Source: Chloroflexota bacterium (GTDB lineage Bacteria; Chloroflexota; Anaerolineae; Caldilineales; Caldilineaceae). From it: DNA of 29,082 nt. Position 1 is the first letter of the stretch. Each line of letters starts with the position of its first letter. The DNA lies in contig QEUW01000137.1 in NCBI GenBank assembly GCA_003577005.1, positions 1 through 29,082 of the forward strand. The letters run 5' to 3'. The position numbers were made by a program, and so were the translations under genes. The notes below the pieces were generated by a model that saw only the letters and a list, made by a program, of their open reading frames with translations, had not been told where the DNA came from and did no database searches. This document shows, piece after piece, positions 9,517-21,047 of this stretch.

Positions 9517-9546
9517 GCTAATCAGTTAGCGATCTGTTTAGCTAAA
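9517..9546. promoter_or_regulatory. Candidate Phd operator palindromes
   Basis: GCTAA-TCAG-TTAGC (9517-9530) is an inverted repeat, and TTTAGCTAAA (9537-9546) is a perfect 10-base palindrome; both share the TTAGC/GCTAA half-site. They lie between the -10 box and the antitoxin ribosome binding site, as expected for antitoxin autorepression. Confidence 0.55.
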
Positions 9547-9560
9547 TGGAAGGATCTGTC

Positions 9561-9878
9561 ATGCCAAAAGTTGTCTCCTCCACCGAAGCGCAAAATCGGT
9601 TCGCCTCGATGATGCAGTGGGCCAACGAACACAACGACGGTGTCGTAGTCGAGGTGCGTGGCGAGCCACGGGCGGCCATCCTCTCGTATGCGGATTATGC
9701 TGAGTTCCTCCGTCTGCGCAAGCAGGAGCAGAAGCGTAAGGTGCTGGCGGCGCTCGATGCAATTCGTGAAGAAATCAAGCAGAAAGGGCCGCCGCTCACG
9801 ACAGAAGAGGCCTACCACTTGGCCGGCATTAGCGAAGATGTGATTCAGAAGATTGCCCAACACGATGATACCGTATAG
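9561..9878 (+). CDS. Phd/YefM-type antitoxin
   Basis: A small (105 residue) protein matching the Phd/YefM antitoxin fold: MPKVVSSTEAQNRFASMMQW followed by VVVEVRGEPRAAILSYADYAEF. These proteins neutralise a partner toxin and repress the operon by binding promoter palindromes. ATG 9561 is favoured because GGAAGG lies seven bases upstream; an ATG at 9546 lies inside the operator palindrome. The charged C-terminal half (about residues 55-105) is the likely toxin-binding part. The PIN gene follows after 11 bases. The pair points against the liv genes on both sides. Confidence 0.82.
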   Translation: MPKVVSSTEAQNRFASMMQWANEHNDGVVVEVRGEPRAAILSYADYAEFLRLRKQEQKRKVLAALDAIREEIKQKGPPLTTEEAYHLAGISEDVIQKIAQHDDTV

Positions 9879-9889
9879 GCAGCCCACTG

Positions 9890-10327
9890 ATGTTATTTAG
9901 GGTGCTCATTGACGCCAACATCTGGCTCAGCTATCTGCTTGCGCCGGATCAGGAACAAACGATAACGCTCGTTGTGCGCGCCTGTTTGTCTGATGCAGTA
10001 GAGTTAATCGTTCCACCCGAACTGCTTGAAGAGATCGTGACTATCTTAACTACAAGACGTTACTTTCTCGAACGAGTTTCTCAAGAACGTCGTGAGGAGC
10101 TAGTACGCCAGCTTCAACTTTACCATGATCTGGCTGGGTCTCTGGAAGCCCCACCTCCTTATACTCGTGACCGCAAAGATGACTATCTAATTGCCTATGG
10201 CTTGCTCAATGATGTCAATTACTTGATTACCGGTGACAAAGATTTGCTCGTATTGCGAAGAATTGCAGCGCTCGAAATCGTAGATCCAGAGGATTTTCTT
10301 ACTATTCTCTCCGCTCGCCTTCCCTGA
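9890..10327 (+). CDS. PIN-domain toxin (putative ribonuclease)
   Basis: PIN toxins are Mg2+-dependent RNases controlled by a cognate antitoxin. This 145-residue protein has the conserved acidic residues: Asp8 in VLIDANIWLSYL, a Glu in the PPELLEEI segment, Asp97/98 in RDRKDDYLIAYGL, and Asp116/118 in LITGDKDLL. It resembles the COG1569-type putative toxin component. It is coupled to the Phd-like antitoxin upstream. Base composition is AT-richer than livF and livG on either side, in keeping with a mobile cassette. Its stop is four bases from the end of the convergent livG gene. Confidence 0.85.
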   Translation: MLFRVLIDANIWLSYLLAPDQEQTITLVVRACLSDAVELIVPPELLEEIVTILTTRRYFLERVSQERREELVRQLQLYHDLAGSLEAPPPYTRDRKDDYLIAYGLLNDVNYLITGDKDLLVLRRIAALEIVDPEDFLTILSARLP

Positions 10328-10331
10328 CAGT

Positions 10332-11099
10332 TCAATGTTTCCGCCCTAAATAGGCCTCGATCACCTGCTCGTTCGATGTCATCTCGGCAAAACTGCCCTC
10401 GGCGATCTTCTCACCGTGGTCGAGGACGATCACCCGGTCGGAAATGCCCCCCACTACGCTCATGTCGTGCTCGATGAGGACGATGGTGTAGCCGCGCTCG
10501 CTGCGCAACTGGCCGATAAGTTCAGTGATCTCGGCTGATTCGTTGGGGTTCATGCCGGCGGCCGGCTCGTCGAGCAGCAAGAGTCTGGCGCCGGTCATCA
10601 TCGCGCGAGCAATCTCCAGCCGGCGGCGGTTGGCGTAGGAGAGGCTGTAGGCTGGCTGGTCGAGCCGGTAGCCCTTGAGCCGGTCGCCAAAAAAGGCGAG
10701 CAATTCTTCGGCCTGCGCCTGGAGTTCGGCTTCCTCGCGGCGCCAGGCCGGTGTGCGGAAGATCGCCGCCAGCAGCCCGGCCTGGCTGCGACAGTAGCCG
10801 GCGGCCATGACATTCTCCAGTACGCTCAGATTGAGAAAGACGCGCAACGTCTGAAAGGTGCGGGCGATGCCCAACCGGGTAATCTCGTGCGGCGTGCGCC
10901 CCACCAGCGATTTCCCTCGGAAACGGACCGCGCCGCCGTCGGGCCGGTTGACGCCGGTGAGCACATTGAGCGTGGTCGATTTCCCTGCCCCGTTTGGGCC
11001 GATGATACTGACGATCTCGCCCTCGTTGACGGTAAAGGAAAGATGGGTCAATATCTGAAGGCCGCCAAAACGGAGGGATAAATCGTTAACTTCCAGCAT
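10332..11099 (-). CDS. livG: Branched-chain amino acid-type ABC transporter ATPase (LivG)
   Basis: The second ATPase of a Liv-type importer. Walker A GPNGAGKST (residues 34-42), GIARTFQTLRVFLNLSVLENVM, a signature region SLSYANRRRLEIARAM (degenerate as usual for LivG), Walker B LLLLDEPAAGMNPNE, and VLIEHDMSVVGGISDRVIVLDHG are all typical. Length of 255 residues is normal. Its start overlaps the 3' end of the restriction-endonuclease remnant by 14 bases, so ribosome binding relies on sequence inside that gene. livH, livM and the binding-protein gene, normally upstream, are missing; the AT-rich island takes their place. Confidence 0.92.
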   Translation of the reverse strand: MLEVNDLSLRFGGLQILTHLSFTVNEGEIVSIIGPNGAGKSTTLNVLTGVNRPDGGAVRFRGKSLVGRTPHEITRLGIARTFQTLRVFLNLSVLENVMAAGYCRSQAGLLAAIFRTPAWRREEAELQAQAEELLAFFGDRLKGYRLDQPAYSLSYANRRRLEIARAMMTGARLLLLDEPAAGMNPNESAEITELIGQLRSERGYTIVLIEHDMSVVGGISDRVIVLDHGEKIAEGSFAEMTSNEQVIEAYLGRKH

Positions 11100-11615
11100 A
11101 AGGCCCCAGAAATTTATCGCCGTCGAAATGGATCAAATGGGAAGGCGCGTCCGCAACCCAGACCTCGGTCTCCCAGGCAATATCAGCCAGGTGACGCTTC
11201 AGTGCCTGGCGAGAGGGAAATGCTGTGACATAGACCAGGGCCGCGGATGAGTCAGCAAATAAGATCATTAACTCCTCATGGCGCTTGGGATCAATCGGGC
11301 CGTGGCTGGTGACGGCTTCGATCAATATCAACCAATTCTCAGCCGGATAATATAAGACTATGTCGGGCATCTTGCCGTGAGCGTCAACTGTTAGACCCAA
11401 GTCGGCCAACACAGCCGGCTCGTAATATCCCCACTTATCACCGGTGTCACCTATATAGATAAGGTGAGCGCCCGGTACAAAGCGTGGTGCAAACTCTTCG
11501 ATGATCGCCTTGAGAGCCTGCTATGGCCACCGGGGCTGAGTTGGATCTGCTGATTGCCAGCAACTGAAATTGGGATCAACTGTTGTTTTCGCTGGTTCGC
11601 ATAGCGTTTGATCAA
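11086..11615 (-). pseudogene. BsuBI/PstI-type restriction endonuclease, frameshifted
   Basis: The 3' frame reads IIEEFAPRFVPGAHLIYIGD, then KMPDIVLYY, ENWLILIEAVTSHGPIDPKR, VYVTAFPSR, DIAWETEVWVADAP and HLIHFDGDKFLGPY. This is the C-terminal catalytic domain of BsuBI/PstI restriction enzymes, with the PD...E-A core. Upstream of the in-frame TAG (11521-11523) another frame continues the same family: LIKRYANQRKQQLIPISVAG, NQQIQLSPGGHSRL. One inserted base near 11508-11516 would join them, giving about 176 residues from a TTG at 11615. The gene begins about 33 bases after the stop of the MBL gene, so it is the last gene of the methyltransferase operon. The larger N-terminal domain of PstI is not seen. 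The break may be decay or a sequence error. Confidence 0.72.
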
Positions 11616-11648
11616 TGTTTTCCGTAATGCTAGATATACTAATAGAGG

Positions 11649-12578
11649 CTAGAAGACACGCCTACACAGTGCATTGGGTGCATGCAAAATGATAAAGTCC
11701 TCATGTTCAGCAAGAGTGGGTTGAATGATGGAAGTGTCTAATTGAATCTGAATTGTTCCTGCACAACAGCTACGAGTGGAAGTGCCTCTCGAGAACAAAC
11801 GGCCAATATGACTTGGTGATATCTTAGGGACCACAGCTGCACATTGTTTTGATAGTTCTGTACAGACAATTCGAACGCCGGGCTGCCAACTCCTTGTTGC
11901 TTTGATCACTTCTTCTCTGGGGTACTTATCGCTTCGTCCAATTGAGAAAATTATTTGCTCCGGCTTCACATAGGCGCATAGTCTAGTAGTGAATAGTGCA
12001 GTGTCTGAATTGTTTCCAGCTCTACCTCCGTGATGCGGAAACACGAGTATTGGGGACTGGGCATCATGTACGTTTTCCTGTAGATCGCTCAACCCTAGTT
12101 CATCTAAGTCACCAGCTAGCAAGATTACTGGCTTACCGCGATACACAACCCGAATCACACTGCTAATTGTATTTGTCTCTATTCGTATTCCCGACCTATG
12201 TAATGAACCGGGACCTTTTGCTGCCAGGTACGCACTTGGAGCGAGAATCTGCAATTGTGTACTGCCTAGATCGATAGTTCCTGGATCGGCCAGATTTAGC
12301 GAAGTCCTGAACACGAGTTGGCCTGAACGATCAGCCTTGCTCAATTCGTAGACCAAGTCATCCCACACTGCAGAGCCTTTTAGCGCGTCTGTGTTTAACC
12401 TTACCTCCCTGACTACGAATTCTTTTGAACTTAGCAGGCCGATAAGCCCGCCAATATGATCTTCATCTGCATGGGACAACAAAACGAGGTCGATTACACG
12501 CAAATTGTGTCGCAGGAGATATTCTGCAATGTTTCCATGCCCCACATCAATAACGGTCACCGAAGGCGCTGAAGGCAT
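11649..12578 (-). CDS. ComEC-like metallo-beta-lactamase-fold hydrolase of the island operon
   Basis: A soluble MBL-fold protein (309 residues) like the hydrolase domain of ComEC/Rec2. Motifs: VIDVGHGN, LVLLSHADEDHIGGL (His36, Asp38, Asp40, His41), LLAGDLDELG with a ligand Asp, and VFPHHGGRAG, then FSIGR. Known relatives hydrolyse nucleic acid or nucleotide phosphodiesters, which makes this the likely effector or nuclease of the operon, by inference. ATG 12578 follows the receiver-gene stop by one base (TAAGATG) and is preferred over the frame start at 12635. The stretch between VIDVGHGN and the His motif is short: the usual first strands of the fold, or about 20 residues, seem missing. The last ~60 residues, Cys-rich in part, are not recognised. 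Confidence 0.78.
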   Translation of the reverse strand: MPSAPSVTVIDVGHGNIAEYLLRHNLRVIDLVLLSHADEDHIGGLIGLLSSKEFVVREVRLNTDALKGSAVWDDLVYELSKADRSGQLVFRTSLNLADPGTIDLGSTQLQILAPSAYLAAKGPGSLHRSGIRIETNTISSVIRVVYRGKPVILLAGDLDELGLSDLQENVHDAQSPILVFPHHGGRAGNNSDTALFTTRLCAYVKPEQIIFSIGRSDKYPREEVIKATRSWQPGVRIVCTELSKQCAAVVPKISPSHIGRLFSRGTSTRSCCAGTIQIQLDTSIIQPTLAEHEDFIILHAPNALCRRVF

Positions 12579-12579
12579 C

Positions 12580-13245
12580 TTATTCCGATTCCCAACTCTC
12601 AAAAAACAGATCTTCGTTCTGTTCAGCTCCAACATTTACCTGCGCATGAAATCGCTTCCGGCCTTTTCGGATGCGTTCATGGATAAGTTTGGGAAGGTGC
12701 GCCAGCGTTAGCCTCACTGTTTGACGGGGATCCCAGGCTGGAATAATTACATACACAAAATTGTCATCGAAGGAGTCAACACGTACAAGTGTACGCCATG
12801 GCCTACGGTGCGCTTCAAATTCGCCGTCAAACTCTCCGAAGCAACAAGCCAGTCCAGCACACAATGAATCGGGTTCAAGATTTTCAGAGTCGGGAGTGAA
12901 CAACACAGGAATAAACCGTCTATAAGGCCTTATCTCATCCACGTTTGCTTTTTCATATCGGGTGCAAAGTATTGCTGGAAAATTCTCTTGGTAAAGCCGA
13001 GCGGCCAATTCTGCCCCGTTGAAGGTAGCATATCGCTTCTTGGTTAGGTGATGATCCAAGATTGCTGCCTCAGCGACTTCCTTGCTATGTGCGACCAATG
13101 CATCAATATTGGTCAGTGGTCCATCTTGTGGAACGGGCTCTAGCTTTAGGTCTGCTATTCTGAACCCATAGGCTTTTCGTGCTGATGGATCATCATCTAT
13201 TATTTGTACTCGGGAAATCGTTCTACGTGCAACAGTGATACTCAT
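12580..13245 (-). CDS. Receiver-domain protein with unrecognised C-terminal domain
   Basis: The N-terminal half (about residues 10-115) resembles a response-regulator receiver: VQIIDDDPSARKAYGF with acidic pocket Asp17-19, AAILDHHL with the phosphoacceptor position Asp64, and AILCTRY with the switch Thr95. The C-terminal ~105 residues (PWRTLVRVDSF, VYVIIPAWDPRQTVRLTL, then a basic helix-like HLPKLIHERIRKGRKRF) match no DNA-binding output domain that I recognise. The gene starts one base after the stop of the double-GHKL kinase (TAAGATG), with GGGGA as ribosome binding site, so the two are translationally coupled and probably form a phosphorelay pair. Length 221 residues. Confidence 0.75.
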   Translation of the reverse strand: MSITVARRTISRVQIIDDDPSARKAYGFRIADLKLEPVPQDGPLTNIDALVAHSKEVAEAAILDHHLTKKRYATFNGAELAARLYQENFPAILCTRYEKANVDEIRPYRRFIPVLFTPDSENLEPDSLCAGLACCFGEFDGEFEAHRRPWRTLVRVDSFDDNFVYVIIPAWDPRQTVRLTLAHLPKLIHERIRKGRKRFHAQVNVGAEQNEDLFFESWESE

Positions 13246-13246
13246 C

Positions 13247-15313
13247 TTATATCCCCAAAACCGGCAGCATCACGATGATCTCCGCCCCTCCGAGAGGGCT
13301 TGTAGCATTCGCAGCAACTCGTCCTCCCAAATCCTTAACGGTATCTTGCACGATTGTTAGTCCAAGACCTGTACCACTGGGTCTCGTAGTCTCACCTGGA
13401 ATCCAAATATCATCGATGGCAATATCAACAATTCCAGGGCCGCTATCTAGCACACGCAGGGTGAACCACCCGTCCGTAACCTCGGTGTCAATAAGAATAA
13501 GCCGCTCGCTACTTCCATTGCTTTCAAAGGCTGCTAGGCTATTATTGAGAAGATTAGTGAGAATTGACTCAATGGCTGCTTCACTCCCGCGAAGAAACGG
13601 TGTTCCTTCGCACAATGTGGTCTGTAGCGTGACATCTCTCCCTTCCAGGAATGGCTTAAATGTTGTTAATACATTCTCAATCACTTTGTGAAGATCGACC
13701 CTTCCGAATCTTCTTTTTTCATGGTCTACTAGTCTGAGAGCGGCACTACCAAGTACCGCCAAGGAATCAACGGCATGTTTGACGGTATCAATAGGTTCCG
13801 CTAGGAGAATCTCGTACTGAAATGGTAACGCTTCTCTAGCTCGGCTTTCTATTGAGCGAACGGAGAATCGTATCACCTTGATCGGATTGCCGCTGGACTC
13901 ATGAGCAAATGTAGCCGTAGTAATCCCGACGGTGCTTAATGTACGATACAGCTGCACTTCCTTTCTTAACTTCTCAACTTCGGTATCCCGCGCTTTACGA
14001 TACTCCTCAAACGAGTGCTTAACACGTGACCGCTCATGCTCAGAAAGTGTAGCAATCGCATCCTCCACAGTTTTTGCGGCTTGACTTGCCTTTTCTTGCG
14101 TTTGCTTCCGTTCTTCCGCACGACGTTTTTCGGCCTCACCGAGTCGTCTCTTTGCCATCCAGTCAAGTGCGTCTTGTGCAAATGACCGTAAATCCTGGAA
14201 GGCTAGATTTTCAACTAGGCCTGAACGATCTGTTTTCTGGAGCAGCGTCCCCGACGTATGTGTAATTGAAACTCTTCCGATTGAAGTATTCGTACCTGGA
14301 CGTTCTTCAGGGCTTCTAACACGCCGCAAATTCATGTCTAGCCAATCGTTGCCCGGATTACCATAGGGCATCACGCGTAATCGATTTTCATAAAGATGCA
14401 CCCCGCCAAATTCATTTAGCCAGGCTCGCACTTCGGCAAGCGTGCTCGTTCTTGTTGAGAAGGCTTCCTTCTTCAATAGAAAAGCCCAGAGGTCGAATCT
14501 GGCTGGGGGGCATTGATAGAATCTGCCTTTTTTCCCTCTGGTAATTTCGTCATGATCAGCGGTGAATAGAACAGCACCCTTCCAGTCAAGCACAGATGCC
14601 TTGGCCTCGCCTTTCTCATCCACTTCGGCCAGAAGGTGGTACTCTGCCTCTTCAAAGTATCTCTTTTCGACGAGCTGTTCAAATTCCGCAAACGCTGGAG
14701 CCACAAGCACTGGCTTAAATCCCAAAGGATCATCTGAGAATGGATCGGCAAGCATGATTAGTGCTCTTGCCAGACTTTGAACAGATGATCGAGACAGCTT
14801 GGTTTTCAAGCCAGCAATGGTTATCTCGGTCCCAGAATTCACACCCAGGGGTCTCAACATTTCATGAACTTGCAATTCAACATCTTCAACGGCAGAGACT
14901 TTGTCAAATTCATTCCAATCGATCTTGAGCTTGTACTGTTTGTCAGGCCGATCGGCAGGACGTGTGATTAGTTCGACGGATGTGCCAAGTCTGAGAGCGG
15001 CAAGCCGCCCAATCCCCTTATTCCCGGCAGGAATTCTACCCAATCTAGTCCGCCTATCCTGTGATTTGTTTGAGCCACCTAAGAGCAGCCATCCATTAAC
15101 AATGTCATTTTCATCCATCCCAATTCCGTCGTCGCATATCCGAATCGCGCCATTGTTACTCTTACTGTTCTGCAGTTCAATGACACACCGATGGGCATCT
15201 GCATCATAAGTATTCTTGACCAATTCCAAAATACCTTGGTCAGGATTGGGATTTAATTCTTCGCCCAATCTGCGAAGAATATCTGTGGCGAAGCGAATGG
15301 TTGCAACCTTCAT
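13247..15313 (-). CDS. Double GHKL protein: MORC/Hsp90-like ATPase fused to a histidine-kinase-like module
   Basis: Numbering is from ATG 15313, which overlaps the methyltransferase stop as ATGA and has GGGAGAG upstream. N-terminal Bergerat ATPase: ILELVKNTYDADA (Glu30, Asn34), RICDDGIGM (Asp61), GRIPAGNKGIGRLAA. Then about 270 residues with a MutL/MORC-like transducer appearance (ENRLRVMPYGNPGNDW), a charged coiled coil (about 385-450), an H-box TATFAHESSGNPIKVI (His471 as possible phosphoacceptor), and a C-terminal kinase ATPase: NLLNNSLAAF, VLDSGPGI, IPGETTRPSGTGLGLTIV. MutL/MORC-type ATPases are known beside restriction-modification genes. Joining one to a histidine kinase gives a plausible DNA-sensing kinase, by inference. 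No transmembrane segments, so cytoplasmic. 688 residues. Confidence 0.85.
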   Translation of the reverse strand: MKVATIRFATDILRRLGEELNPNPDQGILELVKNTYDADAHRCVIELQNSKSNNGAIRICDDGIGMDENDIVNGWLLLGGSNKSQDRRTRLGRIPAGNKGIGRLAALRLGTSVELITRPADRPDKQYKLKIDWNEFDKVSAVEDVELQVHEMLRPLGVNSGTEITIAGLKTKLSRSSVQSLARALIMLADPFSDDPLGFKPVLVAPAFAEFEQLVEKRYFEEAEYHLLAEVDEKGEAKASVLDWKGAVLFTADHDEITRGKKGRFYQCPPARFDLWAFLLKKEAFSTRTSTLAEVRAWLNEFGGVHLYENRLRVMPYGNPGNDWLDMNLRRVRSPEERPGTNTSIGRVSITHTSGTLLQKTDRSGLVENLAFQDLRSFAQDALDWMAKRRLGEAEKRRAEERKQTQEKASQAAKTVEDAIATLSEHERSRVKHSFEEYRKARDTEVEKLRKEVQLYRTLSTVGITTATFAHESSGNPIKVIRFSVRSIESRAREALPFQYEILLAEPIDTVKHAVDSLAVLGSAALRLVDHEKRRFGRVDLHKVIENVLTTFKPFLEGRDVTLQTTLCEGTPFLRGSEAAIESILTNLLNNSLAAFESNGSSERLILIDTEVTDGWFTLRVLDSGPGIVDIAIDDIWIPGETTRPSGTGLGLTIVQDTVKDLGGRVAANATSPLGGAEIIVMLPVLGI

Positions 15314-16611
15314 TGTCTCTCCCACCAGGGCAAATCTGCAAGTGCCGAGACGGTCAAATGCCTACAGCTAATTCGCTGATTAAGCCAACTGCTTGTCTCC
15401 TCCATCTTAAGGACTTCCACTAGTTCATAACAGTCACCAAGCTCACCACTATGAGGAATCAATACCAACAAATGGTTTTCTACTGCAACAGGTTCAGACA
15501 TATCCACAACGGTGGGTACGGCCCGGTAGCGATCACCCTTTCTTGATGTTCGTCTGACTACTACAAATGGAGGGGTGAAAGTAGCGCCGCTGAAGCGTCT
15601 TTGTTTCTCTAGTCCCCAAATCGTTGCCCAAGGGGGCGCATTCTGAGGAGTAAGGTAAGGATATGTTTTCCCTTCATGAGGGTCTCGATACTCTACAACA
15701 GCCCCCACATGTACAGAAAACTTTCCCCTTACCTTAAAGTGTTGCCCGTCAGCTGCAGGCTCCCAAAGCTTCGAGTCTCTCATACTGCTATCACGTCTAA
15801 CTTCTAATTCCAGGATAAAAACATCAACATCAGCATGTTTATCAAACTGACCCAAGCATTCTGTTTCTAATATCTCGGCCTTGGCCTCAAGTTGGGAACG
15901 CCATTTCTTGTAATTTGAGCCGCTACGAAGTACATCGGGCAGGATAGCTACAAGCTTGGTTCCATTCGATGCATTAGACACACAAAAATCGACAAACACG
16001 GCGGCTGCATTTACCTTTCCAGATGCCCAAGTACAATCTTGAGGTGGTGTGACTTTCGTGTAAGGTGGATTCATTATAATGTGGGTGGCCCGCTCGATAG
16101 AATCTGCGCATAATAGACCGTTTCTTGCTGTAATGCCGGGGAAGAGAAGGTCAAGATCCGGGACAATAGCTATATTGGATTGATGACCTTGTAGGATTCC
16201 AGCTAAAACAAGTCTCAATTTGGCTGCGTTCACAAATTCCATGAAGATATCATGACCAATAAGCTGCTTGCCCCACAGCTCTAAAGTAGACGAAAGATCG
16301 CCGCCCTTACCAAGTTTGGGTGTAAGACCAATGAATAAATCGCCAACCCCACATGCAATATCTACAACAACTGACTTGGATGAAAGAGTGCTAATGGTTC
16401 TTTCAGCGAGTGCGTTTCGTAAATGAGACGGGGTAAAAAAGATGCCCGACCTTCTTAGATCGCTGAGTTTTACGGTGGATCTTAATTGTTTTGAAGGTTC
16501 ACCATCAAGGGCAATATCAATGGAGTTAGCTAGCGCAGGTGTAACGCCATTTGCCAGTACCGTGCTAACAATATTATGCAAATGCTCGACGTATGAGAGA
16601 AAGGATTTCAT
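15310..16611 (-). CDS. N6-adenine-type DNA methyltransferase
   Basis: A SAM-dependent DNA methylase of the N-6 gamma class. FFTPSHLRNALAE precedes motif I VVVDIACGVGDLF (about residues 81-93); motif IV is IIMNPPYTK (Asn181-Pro-Pro-Tyr), followed by VAILPDVLRSG. The C-terminal ~190 residues, containing PPFVVVRRTSRKGDRYRAVP and HLLVLIPH, look like a target-recognition region as in Eco57I/TaqI-type enzymes. ATG 16611 is chosen; a TTG at 16641 gives ten more residues. It is the first gene of the five-gene operon that ends in a BsuBI/PstI-type nuclease, and PstI-like systems do pair with adenine methylases. Base composition is clearly lower in GC than in genes outside the island. Confidence 0.87.
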   Translation of the reverse strand: MKSFLSYVEHLHNIVSTVLANGVTPALANSIDIALDGEPSKQLRSTVKLSDLRRSGIFFTPSHLRNALAERTISTLSSKSVVVDIACGVGDLFIGLTPKLGKGGDLSSTLELWGKQLIGHDIFMEFVNAAKLRLVLAGILQGHQSNIAIVPDLDLLFPGITARNGLLCADSIERATHIIMNPPYTKVTPPQDCTWASGKVNAAAVFVDFCVSNASNGTKLVAILPDVLRSGSNYKKWRSQLEAKAEILETECLGQFDKHADVDVFILELEVRRDSSMRDSKLWEPAADGQHFKVRGKFSVHVGAVVEYRDPHEGKTYPYLTPQNAPPWATIWGLEKQRRFSGATFTPPFVVVRRTSRKGDRYRAVPTVVDMSEPVAVENHLLVLIPHSGELGDCYELVEVLKMEETSSWLNQRISCRHLTVSALADLPWWERQ

Positions 16612-16973
16612 AAGGAAACTAGAGATAAAGCTATCGAACAAGAATTGGTGGTACGGATGTTTGAATCAACCATCATTCAGCAGTATACCAGAAACTTGCG
16701 AGCCTGCACGTTGTAGTCGAACGGGCACAAAAACTACCAACCTTGCATCCATGATCAGAATGGGCGTGGCGGCTGGCTGTCGAAACGTGTCTCCTAGGAA
16801 GAGTAGAGATGTGAATCATGATCCCACATCACGGCCCTCATGCAATTTTGGACGACGAGCGTGGGCAGTACCCTCTCCATCCATCACATCGCCTTCTGCT
16901 ATTGGCAGTGTAAGTGGCGGGGATCAGCAGCCAGCGCGACTCCTCAGCATTGAGCCACAAGCGGATAAAACCT
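16612..16973. other. Intergenic region upstream of the methyltransferase operon
   Basis: No convincing gene. On the minus strand TATACT (16682-16687) could be a -10 box for the island operon, without a clear -35. An imperfect dyad GATGTG-N11-CACATC (16808-16830) encloses the palindrome ATCATGAT (16815-16822) and is a candidate binding site. The stop of the cyclase gene (16974) borders the region; no intrinsic terminator is visible after it. Confidence 0.45.
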
Positions 16974-19900
16974 TCACCTATTATAGACCGCCGCAAACGC
17001 TTCTACAAGCCGGCGGTGCGATGGGACGTTTTCCAGGAAGGAGCGTCGCAGCGCGTCGTCGCCGATCTGGCTGGCCCGTTGTTGGAGCAGGTCATGCGCC
17101 GTTGCCAGCAGCGGGGTCGCGCGTTCGTCGCCGTTGGCCCGCAGCGTCTCGTAGACGGTGAGATAGATCTCGATGGGGTCCAGCACCCCCTCCAACGAAC
17201 CGGTCTCCAAATGGGCGAGGATCGGCTCGATATGGCTGAGCGCCCGCGCCGGATCACCCTGCGCCAGCGCCACGTCGGCTAGACCGGCCAGCGCCTCCAT
17301 GCGCTGGGTAGGCTGTTGCAGTTCGGTACGGATGGCAAGCGCCTGCTCGTAGGCGACGGTGGCTTCTTCTAGCCGACCAAGGATCAAGGCGGCGCGCCCA
17401 ACTTTGCTGAGAATCTTGCTCTCGTTCTCGCGATAGCCTACCGTGCGGGCGCTCTCCAACGCCTGTTGCAACCGTTCGTAAGCGTCCTCGCCGTCCCCTT
17501 GGCGGATCTCGATTTCGGCCAGGATCGCGCTTGGCAGCGAGTCATAGCCGCGGCTGCCGATGGCGCGCGCCAGTTCGAGCGAGGCGGTGATATAGGTGCG
17601 GGCCAGCTCATCGTTACCCAGGTCCATGGCGATGGCCCCCAGGTTGCCCTGGGCGACCATCATGCCAAAGCGGTCGTTGAGTTCGCCAAAGATCGCCAGC
17701 GCCTGGTGCTGGTACTCCAGCGCACGCTCGTATTGGCCGAGCCGCTGGTAGGAGATGCCGGCATTGGTGCGCCCGATCCCCTGGCGCAGACGGTCGCCGG
17801 TTTCGTGATAGAGGGTGAGTCCCGCGTTGAGATAGCGAAGCGCGGCCGCGTGATCGCCTAGGTTTTGGGCAATCAGTCCCAAGTTGGTAAGGGGGGGACC
17901 CTGGGCGAAACGCTTGCCAATCCCCTCATAGATAGGCAGACTCTGTTCGAGATGCGCCGTAGCTTGCGGATAGTTGCCCATATACCAATTAGTAACGCCC
18001 AGGCTCACCAGCGCATCAGCTTCCACCTCGCGGAAGCCATGCGCCTGCGCTAGGGCAAGCGCTTGGCCGGCCTGCGCCAGTGCCTCGCCATATTGGCCCA
18101 GCCGCCAGGATTTGCGCGCCTGATGTTCGTAGGCCCTGGCCTGTAATAAGAAATCTTCGCCCGCAATGGCAGAGGCAAGCGCCCGCCGCGCCGCCTCTAC
18201 TGCCGCCGGAAAATCGCTGATCGATTCAGCGTATTCGGCCTGAGCCAGCGCCGCATCGCCCTGGCGGATCGGGTCGTTCAGCGCCGCGGCCAGGGCGATC
18301 ATACGCTCCACATCGTCGCGCTGGGCGGCCCGATTTCCCTGTGTCTGCAAGACGCGCACACGAGCGGCCAGTAGATCGTAGCGAGCAGGGAGATCGTCTG
18401 CCGGGGTCAATTCCAACGCACGGGTGAAAAAGCGGATGGCATCTGTATTGGCAAACTGCTCGGCAGCCCGTTCGCCGGCCAGCTGGGCAAAACGACGCTC
18501 TTGGTCAGGTGCGAGCGCCTGGTGGTAGTGGTAGACCAGGTCCGCATAGCGGGGAGCCAGGTCGGCGGCATAGACCTGTTCGATACACTCGGCGGCCAGG
18601 CGATGCAAGGTGCGTAGACGGGCGCGCAACTGCATTTCATAGGCGGCCTCGCGCAACAGAGTGTGGCGAAAGAGATAGCGCAACTCGGTGAGCGCCGTCC
18701 AGATCGCCTCGTCTTCGGCCACATGGAGGCTGGTCAAAACACCCGAGGTATTGCGCAGCATCCGCGACAACACCTCCACCTCAAACTCCCGGCCCAAGAC
18801 CGATGCCGTCTGTACAACCTCTTTGACCGCCTGGGCCAGCCGGTCCAGCCGGGCAACAAGCAGGGCCTGGACGGCGTCGGGCAGCAGTTCGGTGGCGGTT
18901 GGGGCCAGCCCCGCTTCGGTGGCCGCCAACAGCCCCTGCTCTTGCAGATAGAGCAAAATCTGCTCGGCAAAAAAAGGATTCCCTTCGCTCCTGCTCTGCA
19001 CCAGCGCAACGAGCGCCGGCGTGACGGTCTGCCCCAACCGCTGTTCAGCGAGCCGGGCCACCGCCGAGGCCGAAAGTGCGGGCAGGCGGATCACCTGGTA
19101 GCGCACCTGATCGCCCAGACGCTCCACGGCAGGCTCTTCGCGGCTAGTGGCGATCACCATCAGCGGGTGTTCTGCGACTCCAGCGAGCAGCCGCTGTAAA
19201 AACTGGTGCGATTCCACATCGAGCCATTGGAGGTCTTCGATCTCCAAAATCAGCGGCTGGCGCAGACTTTCGACCAATAAGAGCGCCCGCAGCGCGCTAA
19301 AGGTGTTTTCAAAGCGGAGTTGTGGAGCCACTTGCGCATAGAGCGAATCCTCCCAGTAGAGGTCGACCAGCGCACCCAGAAAGGAGCGGGTGCGCGCTAG
19401 TTCCTGTTGCAGGGTGGGGTCGTTGGTCTGGGCAATCAGCGTATCCAGCGTGCGGTCGAAGTGTGCTTTGTTTTCGCTGTCGCTTTGGCTCGGGGATTGG
19501 CTGAAATAGGTGCGCAAAAAATAGCGGAACGGGTTGAGCGGCTGGCGCAAGATCTCGTCTGCCGGGCAGTGGAACCACTGAACGGCGGATTCTGCTGGCG
19601 TTTCAGCCGTCGCAGCGGGCGCGGTGAGGCGGCGGCGCGCCTCGTAGAGGAGGCGGCTCTTGCCGATGCCCGCCTCGCCTACCACGACGACCAGGTCGGC
19701 GCGCCCCTGGCGCGCTGCGGGTTGCAGCGCAGACAATAGTTGCGCAAGCTCCTCGTCACGCCCGACAAGGGCGCTCTCATGACCGGCAACCGTCTGTTCG
19801 CCGCGGCCGCGCAGGGCAAAGACGGGTTGTTCGACCTCAAAGCCTTTGAACCGCATCTGGCCGACAAGCGCCACGTCGAAGCCCGCGGCGTGGCGGGCCG

Positions 19901-21047
19901 TTTCGGTATCCAGCCAGATGTCACCCCAGCCGGCGGCCACCATTTGCCGCGCCGCCAGATTGACGCCAGCGCCGTAACAGGTGTACTCCTCGCGCAACGG
20001 GCTGCCGACAAAGCCCGCATAGCTGCGCTGAAAGGTGATCCCGGCGCGCACTGGGACGCTGGCCTGGTCGCGCAGGTCGAGGACAAAGTTGAGCACGCGC
20101 GTCACATCATTCTCGTGGCTGGTCGGCGCCCCCCAAAAGAGCAGAAAGGTACTGCCGGTATCGCGGGCGCCGATCCGCCCCACCCGGCACAGGTAGCCAC
20201 CGTACTGGTGTAGCAGGCGGAACAGGACGGGGATCAGCGGGTCGGACGAACCAGGTTCGGGCAGGGTTTGCACGTTGAGGAAGAGCGACACCACGTAACG
20301 GAATTCGCCCTGGGCGGCCAGGTTTAAGAGATCGGCCGGGTAGAAGACCTGGGCTATTTCAAGCGGGGGGTCACCGGGCTGCACAACCGGTGCAGGCGCT
20401 GGCAGCAACGCCGCATCAAGGATGTGGAGTTTTCGATACGCAGCGTTGGCGGCTACCGGGGTTGTCGCCAGCGCGGTCTGCATTGTGGTTGACAACCGCT
20501 CTTGGATGCGGCGCGTGATGACCAGGCCACCGGCATCGGCGTATTGCTCGCCCTGGACCGCATCGTCGATGGCGGGGCCGGAAAAGGTGTAGGCATGGGA
20601 CTGCGCCTGGGTACTGTCTCCTTCGCTGGCCCAGATACCCCATGTCACATCACCGCCGGCCATACTGGTGCGCACGGTAAACTCAAACGTACCGTAAGGG
20701 GTTTCCTGGTGTGGTTGAGCCGCCATTCGCTGGCGGATCTCCTGAGCCGCGGCCAGCGCCCGCAAGTAGACCTCATCCTCAGCGCCTGGGAAGACCGCCT
20801 TGAAGGCGTCACCGGCGAACCCGGCGATCAGGCCACCGTGGGCATAGACGCTCTCCACCAGCGGCGCAAAGACGGCCAACAGAATATTGGCGAGCACCTC
20901 GGCGCCGGCTCGTTCATGTTCGGTCAGCCGCACTGTCAGCGGTGTAAACCCCGATGTGTCGACAAAGAGGACGGCAGCGGGAAAGCGGCCACTAAATTCG
21001 CCTGCTTGTAGCCGCTCCAAAATTAGATGGGGCGTCAGGTGGTGCAT
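16974..21047 (-). CDS. Adenylate/guanylate cyclase-domain protein with AAA ATPase and TPR repeats
   Basis: A 1357-residue protein with the layout of soluble adenylyl cyclase-type proteins. The first class III cyclase domain (about 20-210) has AAVLFVDTSGFTPLT (metal Asp30) and GGLIAGFAGDAFKAVFP (metal Asp80). A second, more diverged cyclase domain (about 250-410) has GGYLCRVGRIG, AGITFQRSYAGFVG and CYGAGVNLAARQM and lacks an obvious first metal Asp. An AAA/NACHT-like ATPase follows: ALVGRDEELAQLL, Walker A GEAGIGKS (457-464), LILEIEDLQWLD (Walker B). The last ~500 residues are TPR repeats of the GNYPQATAHLEQSL type. The start is one base after the stop of the BTAD regulator gene (TAAGATG), so the two form an operon. 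Cyclic nucleotide production is plausible but not certain. Confidence 0.85.
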   Translation of the reverse strand: MHHLTPHLILERLQAGEFSGRFPAAVLFVDTSGFTPLTVRLTEHERAGAEVLANILLAVFAPLVESVYAHGGLIAGFAGDAFKAVFPGAEDEVYLRALAAAQEIRQRMAAQPHQETPYGTFEFTVRTSMAGGDVTWGIWASEGDSTQAQSHAYTFSGPAIDDAVQGEQYADAGGLVITRRIQERLSTTMQTALATTPVAANAAYRKLHILDAALLPAPAPVVQPGDPPLEIAQVFYPADLLNLAAQGEFRYVVSLFLNVQTLPEPGSSDPLIPVLFRLLHQYGGYLCRVGRIGARDTGSTFLLFWGAPTSHENDVTRVLNFVLDLRDQASVPVRAGITFQRSYAGFVGSPLREEYTCYGAGVNLAARQMVAAGWGDIWLDTETARHAAGFDVALVGQMRFKGFEVEQPVFALRGRGEQTVAGHESALVGRDEELAQLLSALQPAARQGRADLVVVVGEAGIGKSRLLYEARRRLTAPAATAETPAESAVQWFHCPADEILRQPLNPFRYFLRTYFSQSPSQSDSENKAHFDRTLDTLIAQTNDPTLQQELARTRSFLGALVDLYWEDSLYAQVAPQLRFENTFSALRALLLVESLRQPLILEIEDLQWLDVESHQFLQRLLAGVAEHPLMVIATSREEPAVERLGDQVRYQVIRLPALSASAVARLAEQRLGQTVTPALVALVQSRSEGNPFFAEQILLYLQEQGLLAATEAGLAPTATELLPDAVQALLVARLDRLAQAVKEVVQTASVLGREFEVEVLSRMLRNTSGVLTSLHVAEDEAIWTALTELRYLFRHTLLREAAYEMQLRARLRTLHRLAAECIEQVYAADLAPRYADLVYHYHQALAPDQERRFAQLAGERAAEQFANTDAIRFFTRALELTPADDLPARYDLLAARVRVLQTQGNRAAQRDDVERMIALAAALNDPIRQGDAALAQAEYAESISDFPAAVEAARRALASAIAGEDFLLQARAYEHQARKSWRLGQYGEALAQAGQALALAQAHGFREVEADALVSLGVTNWYMGNYPQATAHLEQSLPIYEGIGKRFAQGPPLTNLGLIAQNLGDHAAALRYLNAGLTLYHETGDRLRQGIGRTNAGISYQRLGQYERALEYQHQALAIFGELNDRFGMMVAQGNLGAIAMDLGNDELARTYITASLELARAIGSRGYDSLPSAILAEIEIRQGDGEDAYERLQQALESARTVGYRENESKILSKVGRAALILGRLEEATVAYEQALAIRTELQQPTQRMEALAGLADVALAQGDPARALSHIEPILAHLETGSLEGVLDPIEIYLTVYETLRANGDERATPLLATAHDLLQQRASQIGDDALRRSFLENVPSHRRLVEAFAAVYNR

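Follow-up and report, generated by a model that had tools for sequence, protein, structure and literature searches.

A four-gene methyltransferase, double-GHKL kinase, receiver and metallo-β-lactamase cassette as a candidate phosphorelay-switched restriction module

A kinase-receiver pair near restriction-modification (R-M) genes was predicted in 2021, made up of the families PF19191 (HEF_HK) and PF19192 (Response_reg_2) and found mainly with C5 methylases; HNH and Vsr genes were noted among its neighbours (PMC8011034, available sections). MORC-type GHKL ATPases stand beside methylases and nucleases in the MORC/paraMORC families of R-M operons, whose partners include VSR, HNH and restriction endonuclease (RE)-fold proteins (PMC2292703, available sections), and VcSduA, in which a GHKL ATPase and a nuclease are fused, is an anti-phage system (PMC12137116, available sections), which makes the general idea of GHKL-nuclease defence plausible. 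The locus that we describe here lies on contig QEUW01000137.1 of a Chloroflexota bacterium (Caldilineaceae), within a stretch of 29,082 nucleotides that was analysed as a whole and is called the window below. It is an island of genes for a DNA methyltransferase (MTase), a double-GHKL histidine kinase, a receiver protein and a ComEC-like metallo-β-lactamase (MBL) hydrolase (Table 1), and it is a real, strictly linked cassette, all four genes being present in every one of the 39 other loci that are not cut by contig ends. Sequence comparison and structure models suggest that the cassette moves horizontally and forms a self-contained DNA-restriction (defence) module, coupled to methylation and under the control of a phosphorelay, a reading that we hold to be evenly poised between right and wrong.

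The cassette resembles the HEF_HK/Response_reg_2 pair in the order MTase, double-GHKL kinase, receiver and in the build of its kinase, with an N-terminal HATPase_c_3 domain, an H-box and a C-terminal HATPase_c domain, encoded beside a receiver and a DNA methylase. Membership in the two families was nevertheless rejected, as neither model matches: PF19191 gave no match at E ≤1 in the kinase of the window or of the cassette locus L002 (80 bits in L068, the positive control), and PF19192 none at E ≤1 in either receiver (116.8 bits in L068). Profile comparison linked the cassette kinase to the HEF_HK kinases (probability 99.6) and left the receivers unlinked. PF19192 was found in 8 of the 299 genomes of a Pseudomonadota sample; at these eight loci both proteins are longer (kinases of 993-1,078 residues, PF19192 open frames of 567-817) than in the cassette (688 and 221), and no MBL or MTase of the cassette kind was detected in the stretches of 7.2-15 kb around them. 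The methylase of the HEF_HK/Response_reg_2 locus L068, the one locus scanned for it, is a C5 enzyme. Unlike the cassette, the paraMORC families are described without a receiver, a lactamase or a histidine-kinase half in the available sections of PMC2292703. The BbrUII/HgiDII-type GHKL restriction enzymes (NF050001) have an N-terminal ATPase similar to that of the cassette kinase, which at 75.7 bits stays far below the 550-bit family cut-off and has the C-terminal half of a histidine kinase. Phosphorelay defence is represented by Detocs, in which a histidine kinase and a receiver act on an effector that works on nucleotides; to our knowledge, no MTase is involved in it.

The original prediction, made from the letters of the window and its open reading frames (ORFs), did not recognise the combination as a named defence system, and our searches agree. 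With PADLOC 2.0.0, the receiver matched 0 families, and the kinase, MBL and MTase gave weak partial matches of a generic kind and no specific model; mad2 of the MADS system matched part of the MTase weakly (9e-9), and no other mad family matched the cassette proteins. The literature searched gave only the related prediction of 2021, and no description of an MBL version of a kinase-receiver-MTase cassette was found in its open-licence part, preprints being outside the scope of the search. Nothing matching the cassette appears in the available sections of a survey of BREX (PMC12839542). In the available part of the DefensePredictor paper (PMC13092281), Fig. 6F deals with systems that are predicted but unvalidated, and the abbreviations in its legend include HATPase and REC; overlap with the cassette is possible. 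The cassette would add a new, MBL-carrying version to the predicted kinase-receiver/R-M pairs.

Recurrence and spread of the cassette

A kinase-alignment scan of a genome collection holding one genome per species (84,980 species) yielded 41 loci besides the window, a lower bound that favours close relatives because the scan was restricted by two sequence patterns from close kinase homologues. Contig ends cut two of them (L034 and L037). Among the 39 others, 37 are unbroken and keep one order and strand; L038 has its receiver and MBL genes on the other strand, and the MTase and kinase frames of L039 are broken. The 37 unbroken cassettes are 4,918-5,220 bp long, and the median distances between their genes are -4, +2 and 0 bp. 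Recurrence of the four-gene core with or without an RE, the check proposed with the original prediction, was therefore passed strongly. A search for a recurrent fifth gene among the mechanically called ORFs of at least 90 residues, up to four per side of each locus, found none; the largest similarity cluster has 6 proteins and no fixed position. In the window, the four genes have a guanine-plus-cytosine content of 45-48%, against 62-64% for the genes on either side and 52.9% for the RE frame described below, and both the AT-richer stretch and the junctions claimed for it, an ATGA overlap between MTase and kinase and TAAGATG at the kinase/receiver and receiver/MBL junctions, are present. Promoter and terminator scans gave counts below the shuffle expectation.

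Table 1. Features of the island in the window
Feature	Position	Strand	Annotation
N6-type DNA methyltransferase (MTase)	15310..16611	-	gamma-class; N6_Mtase PF02384, E 2e-7
Double-GHKL histidine kinase	13247..15313	-	HATPase_c_3 (MORC-type, N-terminal), H-box His471, HATPase_c (C-terminal)
Receiver protein	12580..13245	-	structure model: (beta-alpha)5 receiver with C-terminal beta domain
ComEC-like metallo-β-lactamase (MBL) hydrolase	11649..12578	-	Lactamase_B; predicted nuclease effector
BsuBI/PstI restriction endonuclease (RE) relic	11086..11645	-	5′ truncated and frameshifted; outside the cassette

Conservation counts and pairwise identities refer throughout to 39 aligned cassettes, the window plus 38 of the 41 loci (without L034, L037 and L039). 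Pairwise identity is correlated between the four proteins: Mantel rho is 0.38-0.74, and for each of the six pairs 0 of 500 permutations equalled or exceeded the value observed. By their record titles and tree labels, the loci belong to Bacteroidota, Planctomycetota, Verrucomicrobiota, Acidobacteriota, Pseudomonadota and Chloroflexota, with Armatimonadota, Gemmatimonadota, Actinomycetota, Myxococcota and others as further phyla. A quick kinase tree with midpoint rooting (74 rows) gathers the kinases from MBL-type loci into a single group of 47 rows with support 100. The phyla are interleaved within this group, which points to spread of the cassette by lateral transfer.

Predicted roles of the four proteins

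The kinase, of which alignment A1 combines the window protein with 22 of 120 listed homologues, has 688 residues and two GHKL ATPase domains, the N-terminal one of the MORC type. His471, Glu30, Asn34 and Asn591 are invariant in the 39 aligned proteins. The receiver (221 residues) carries Asp18, Asp64 and Thr95 and a C-terminal beta domain at about residues 150-219. The window protein has no significant Pfam match, and its assignment to the receiver class comes from the structure model; its alignment, A3, holds the window sequence, 72 of 73 listed homologues and 12 loci, with P0001 omitted because it is 100% identical to the window. Asp18 and Asp64 are present in all 39 proteins, as is Thr or Ser at position 95, and Asp17 in 38. 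The elements expected of a phosphorelay, namely the H-box histidine, the N-box of the ATP site and a receiver aspartate at the fold position, are thus all in place, from which we infer phosphotransfer from His471 of the kinase to Asp64 of the receiver. For the C-terminal domain of the receiver, no known fold was found among the listed matches, which were filled by receiver domains.

The window MTase has DIACGVGDLF as motif I and NPPY as motif IV, and an in-frame TTG at 16641 offers a possible alternative start; motif IV reads NPPF or NPPY in all 39 aligned proteins. The mean pairwise identity of these MTases is 38%. In 713 of 741 protein pairs, identity over the C-terminal part equals or exceeds that over the catalytic part (means 0.458 versus 0.383). 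Gamma-class MTases have their target-recognition domain in the C-terminal part, and the specificity regions of R-M enzymes are usually not constant, unlike this one. The constancy of the C-terminal part suggests that the recognised motif may be common to all these phyla, so that one methylation motif may be shared across them.

The MBL of the window carries the motif HADEDH, Asp157 and His182-His183, and the corresponding positions H-D-D-H, D and H-H are kept in all 39 aligned proteins. The best solved relatives of the MBL profile (alignment A4, from the window and 30 of the 41 loci) are ComEC proteins (E 2.8e-20), and the model of the L002 protein matches the fold of ComEC entry 9ic4 (E 1.3e-15). 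The cassette protein thus has the H-X-D-X-D-H motif, the further ligands and the fold of the ComEC/Rec2 MBL nuclease domain, which the available sections of one report describe as a two-metal endo/exonuclease (PMC12455585); it differs in standing alone, without the channel domains, and in four conserved cysteines. From these features the MBL is predicted to be a nuclease that cuts DNA. The cysteines (C239, C246, C272 and C305) are present in 37 of the 39 proteins, three of the four being lost together in L010 and L015, and they may form a structural metal site.

One distant relative has an HNH protein where the cassette has the MBL, and a second has a weak HNH match there. The first, plasmid P2 of Deinococcus gobiensis, encodes an Eco57I-type MTase, a double-GHKL kinase, a protein that weakly resembles a receiver (PF00072, E 0.002) and an HNH protein that resembles PtuB. 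The second, G634, shares this layout: an N6 MTase and a kinase are followed by a protein weakly similar to receivers and by one whose HNH match falls just short of the Pfam cut-off. Both arrangements fit the MBL position being that of an effector.

We speculate, in line with the original prediction of a restriction-like defence system gated by a phosphorelay that senses the state of the DNA, that restriction is licensed by the His-Asp phosphorelay. The MTase would methylate adenines at one fixed motif of the host DNA, as its motifs I and IV and its constant C-terminal region suggest, and the MORC-like GHKL end of the kinase, possibly in concert with the MTase, would sense DNA that is unmodified or invading. 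The kinase core would phosphorylate His471 and the phosphate would pass to Asp64 of the receiver, in keeping with the invariant residues and the fold; the phosphorylated receiver would then free or activate the ComEC-like MBL, which would cut the DNA. In this scheme a MORC/kinase chimera would read the state of the DNA, the receiver would relay the signal and the nuclease would execute; the effector (MBL or HNH) would be exchanged between subtypes, and the methylation motif would stay the same from phylum to phylum. We hold the scheme in this full form tentatively, at somewhat below an even chance. R-M enzymes are usually seen as autonomous, and a nuclease gated by a phosphorelay would, if true, be a new means of self-damage control and foreign-DNA sensing. 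The cassette would then also offer a testable example, compact at 5 kb, of the kinase-receiver/R-M pairs predicted in 2021, whose output was not known, and its invariant residues make single-residue tests straightforward.

Alternative explanations

Several observations count against a phosphorelay-switched defence module, beginning with the fact that the defence role, the phosphotransfer and the nuclease activity are all deduced from sequence and models. The conserved lysine that should follow β-strand 5 of a receiver is missing from most of the aligned proteins, which have Lys in 7 and Arg in 7 of 39. The Mantel correlations are inflated by the kinship of the genomes, and those of the MTase with the other genes (rho 0.38-0.53) are lower than those among the other three (0.59-0.74). 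The cassette is also rare: with the best few candidates per genome scored in samples of four phyla, 3 of 1,091 genomes besides the four seed genomes have a kinase match of more than 450 bits. All three are among the 300 genomes sampled from Chloroflexota, and in one of them the kinase is broken at the end of a contig; the 791 genomes of the other three samples have none. Since the patterns that guided the locus scan came from close kinase homologues, the scan would overlook looser associations in more distant relatives. Finally, a general defence-island setting was not seen when 141 flanking proteins were compared with the PADLOC families, without a control set; these were the first two called ORFs per side, 142 after removal of those with fewer than 100 or more than 1,100 residues and 141 after removal of a piece of the L039 MTase, and the best 25 of the 29 matched families were each matched by one member only.

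Some of the same evidence would suit a signalling or epigenetic-regulation unit, with the kinase and receiver controlling gene expression or the MTase, and the MBL producing or degrading a small signal. The constant C-terminal region of the MTase, so unlike usual R-M specificity, is in line with such a role, and the relatives of the MBL include phosphorylcholine esterase and cyclic-nucleotide-binding proteins, a point that also tells against a nuclease. We consider regulation unlikely all the same, given that patchy spread and rarity do not resemble a housekeeping regulator, that a relative has HNH in place of the MBL, and that Pfam and a fold search, the latter barely covering the C-terminal part, found no known DNA-binding output domain in the receiver. 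More doubtful still is a methylation-linked module for DNA repair or mismatch processing, with a MutL-like kinase and a repair nuclease, in the way that Vsr accompanies C5 methylases. The MORC type of the N-terminal GHKL domain would agree with it, as would the C5-methylase relatives that carry a repair-type protein after the kinase and its following protein: L068 encodes a PF19192 protein and then Vsr, and L151 and L165 encode an EndIII-like glycosylase after a protein of about 470 residues, arrangements that fit repair of methylcytosine rather than attack and to that extent disfavour restriction. N6-methyladenine, however, poses no deamination problem comparable to that of 5-methylcytosine, the MBL and HNH proteins differ from Vsr and EndIII, and repair alone does not explain a histidine phosphorelay. 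An ordinary type II R-M locus, in which a BsuBI/PstI nuclease would pair with the MTase and the kinase, receiver and MBL would be bystanders or controllers, is hardly credible. An RE domain does adjoin the cassette, and the MTase matches the methylase beside one full-length BsuBI/PstI enzyme weakly (23% identity, E 4e-11). The MTase, though, goes with the kinase cassette in all 39 loci not cut by contig ends, and the relic state of the RE, set out next, contradicts a working type II pair.

The original prediction had described a five-gene minus-strand island; four of its genes are borne out, and the fifth, a BsuBI/PstI nuclease taken to be part of the system, is a broken relic. The BsuBI/PstI domain PF06616 matches an open frame at this place (E 4.7e-57). 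This frame is just 144 codons long (11520-11086), offers a GTG at 11412 as its earliest start and is closed upstream by a stop codon at 11521-11523. When the full-length, 317-residue enzyme of Skermanella rosea is taken as reference, its residues 172-313 align to one frame of the window (11520-11095) and its residues 130-175 to another (11645-11508), with the frame change near 11515, and residues 1-129 have no match in the window. Because the alignment continues across two frames, the gap of about 33 bases reported in the original prediction is not a gene junction. The match terminates at 11645, three bases off the MBL stop codon. What adjoins the cassette is therefore the rest of an older R-M gene, truncated and frameshifted, which suggests that the cassette displaced that gene. 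The window holds no intact BsuBI/PstI gene, and only one of the 41 other loci has a match (L012, upstream, on the opposite strand and likewise without the 5′ part); we therefore rejected the RE as a member of the system.

The copy in the window may itself be decaying. Its MBL lacks 20 residues (after residue 16) that the sister protein P0194 has (329 residues, 7 contigs) and is otherwise identical to it save for one residue at the deletion junction. In an alignment to the L002 protein, whose model has a pLDDT of 92.8, the missing segment covers two predicted strands, so that the window copy may no longer work; its MBL is probably damaged, a further point against a functioning module at this locus. 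Together with the RE relic at the edge, this loss makes it rather probable that the cassette of the window is in decay and no longer functions, irrespective of the role of the intact family. This conclusion is compatible with the phosphorelay-switched restriction module; intact MBL copies exist. On the other side, the remaining three genes are open and have their key residues, the MBL retains its motif residues, and the in-frame deletion could be a metagenome assembly error.

Relatives, neighbours and further occurrences

A related group of double-GHKL kinases on the tree comprises L154, L155, L156, L161, L162, L163 and L166. The proteins that follow the kinases of this group (217-430 residues in those scanned) may be further receivers or effectors; those of L154, L155, L162, L163 and L166, and that of L149, gave no Pfam match at E 0.01. 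Relatives of the receiver without this kinase or MBL occur in three genomes of the Chloroflexota sample (L053-L055, with L076-L078).

Complete cassettes were also found on plasmids, with neighbours that count in favour of a defence role. That of Burkholderia aenigmatica lies about 6.5 kb from a HerA gene annotated as anti-phage, and that of Hymenobacter volaticus directly follows a patatin-like phospholipase gene and lies about 5 kb from a ThiF-family gene. The ThiF-family and patatin-like genes upstream of the Hymenobacter cassette (L085, 1440-7249) we take to be CBASS-like, and two hypothetical proteins on this plasmid give weak matches to the MBL profile. Phage records gave no kinase match; three IMG/VR viral contigs (L081, L082 and L083), possibly provirus or host DNA, carry a complete cassette. 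In Pseudanabaena (L086, 11818-13771) an IS982 transposase splits the MBL gene, and no MTase was annotated or detected beside the kinase.

Next to the island in the window lies a gene for a 1,357-residue AAA_16/TPR protein with a weak cyclase match (16974-21047). On the other flank, beyond the adjoining ABC ATPase gene, a Phd/YefM antitoxin and PIN_3 toxin-like pair is encoded on the plus strand (9546-10327).

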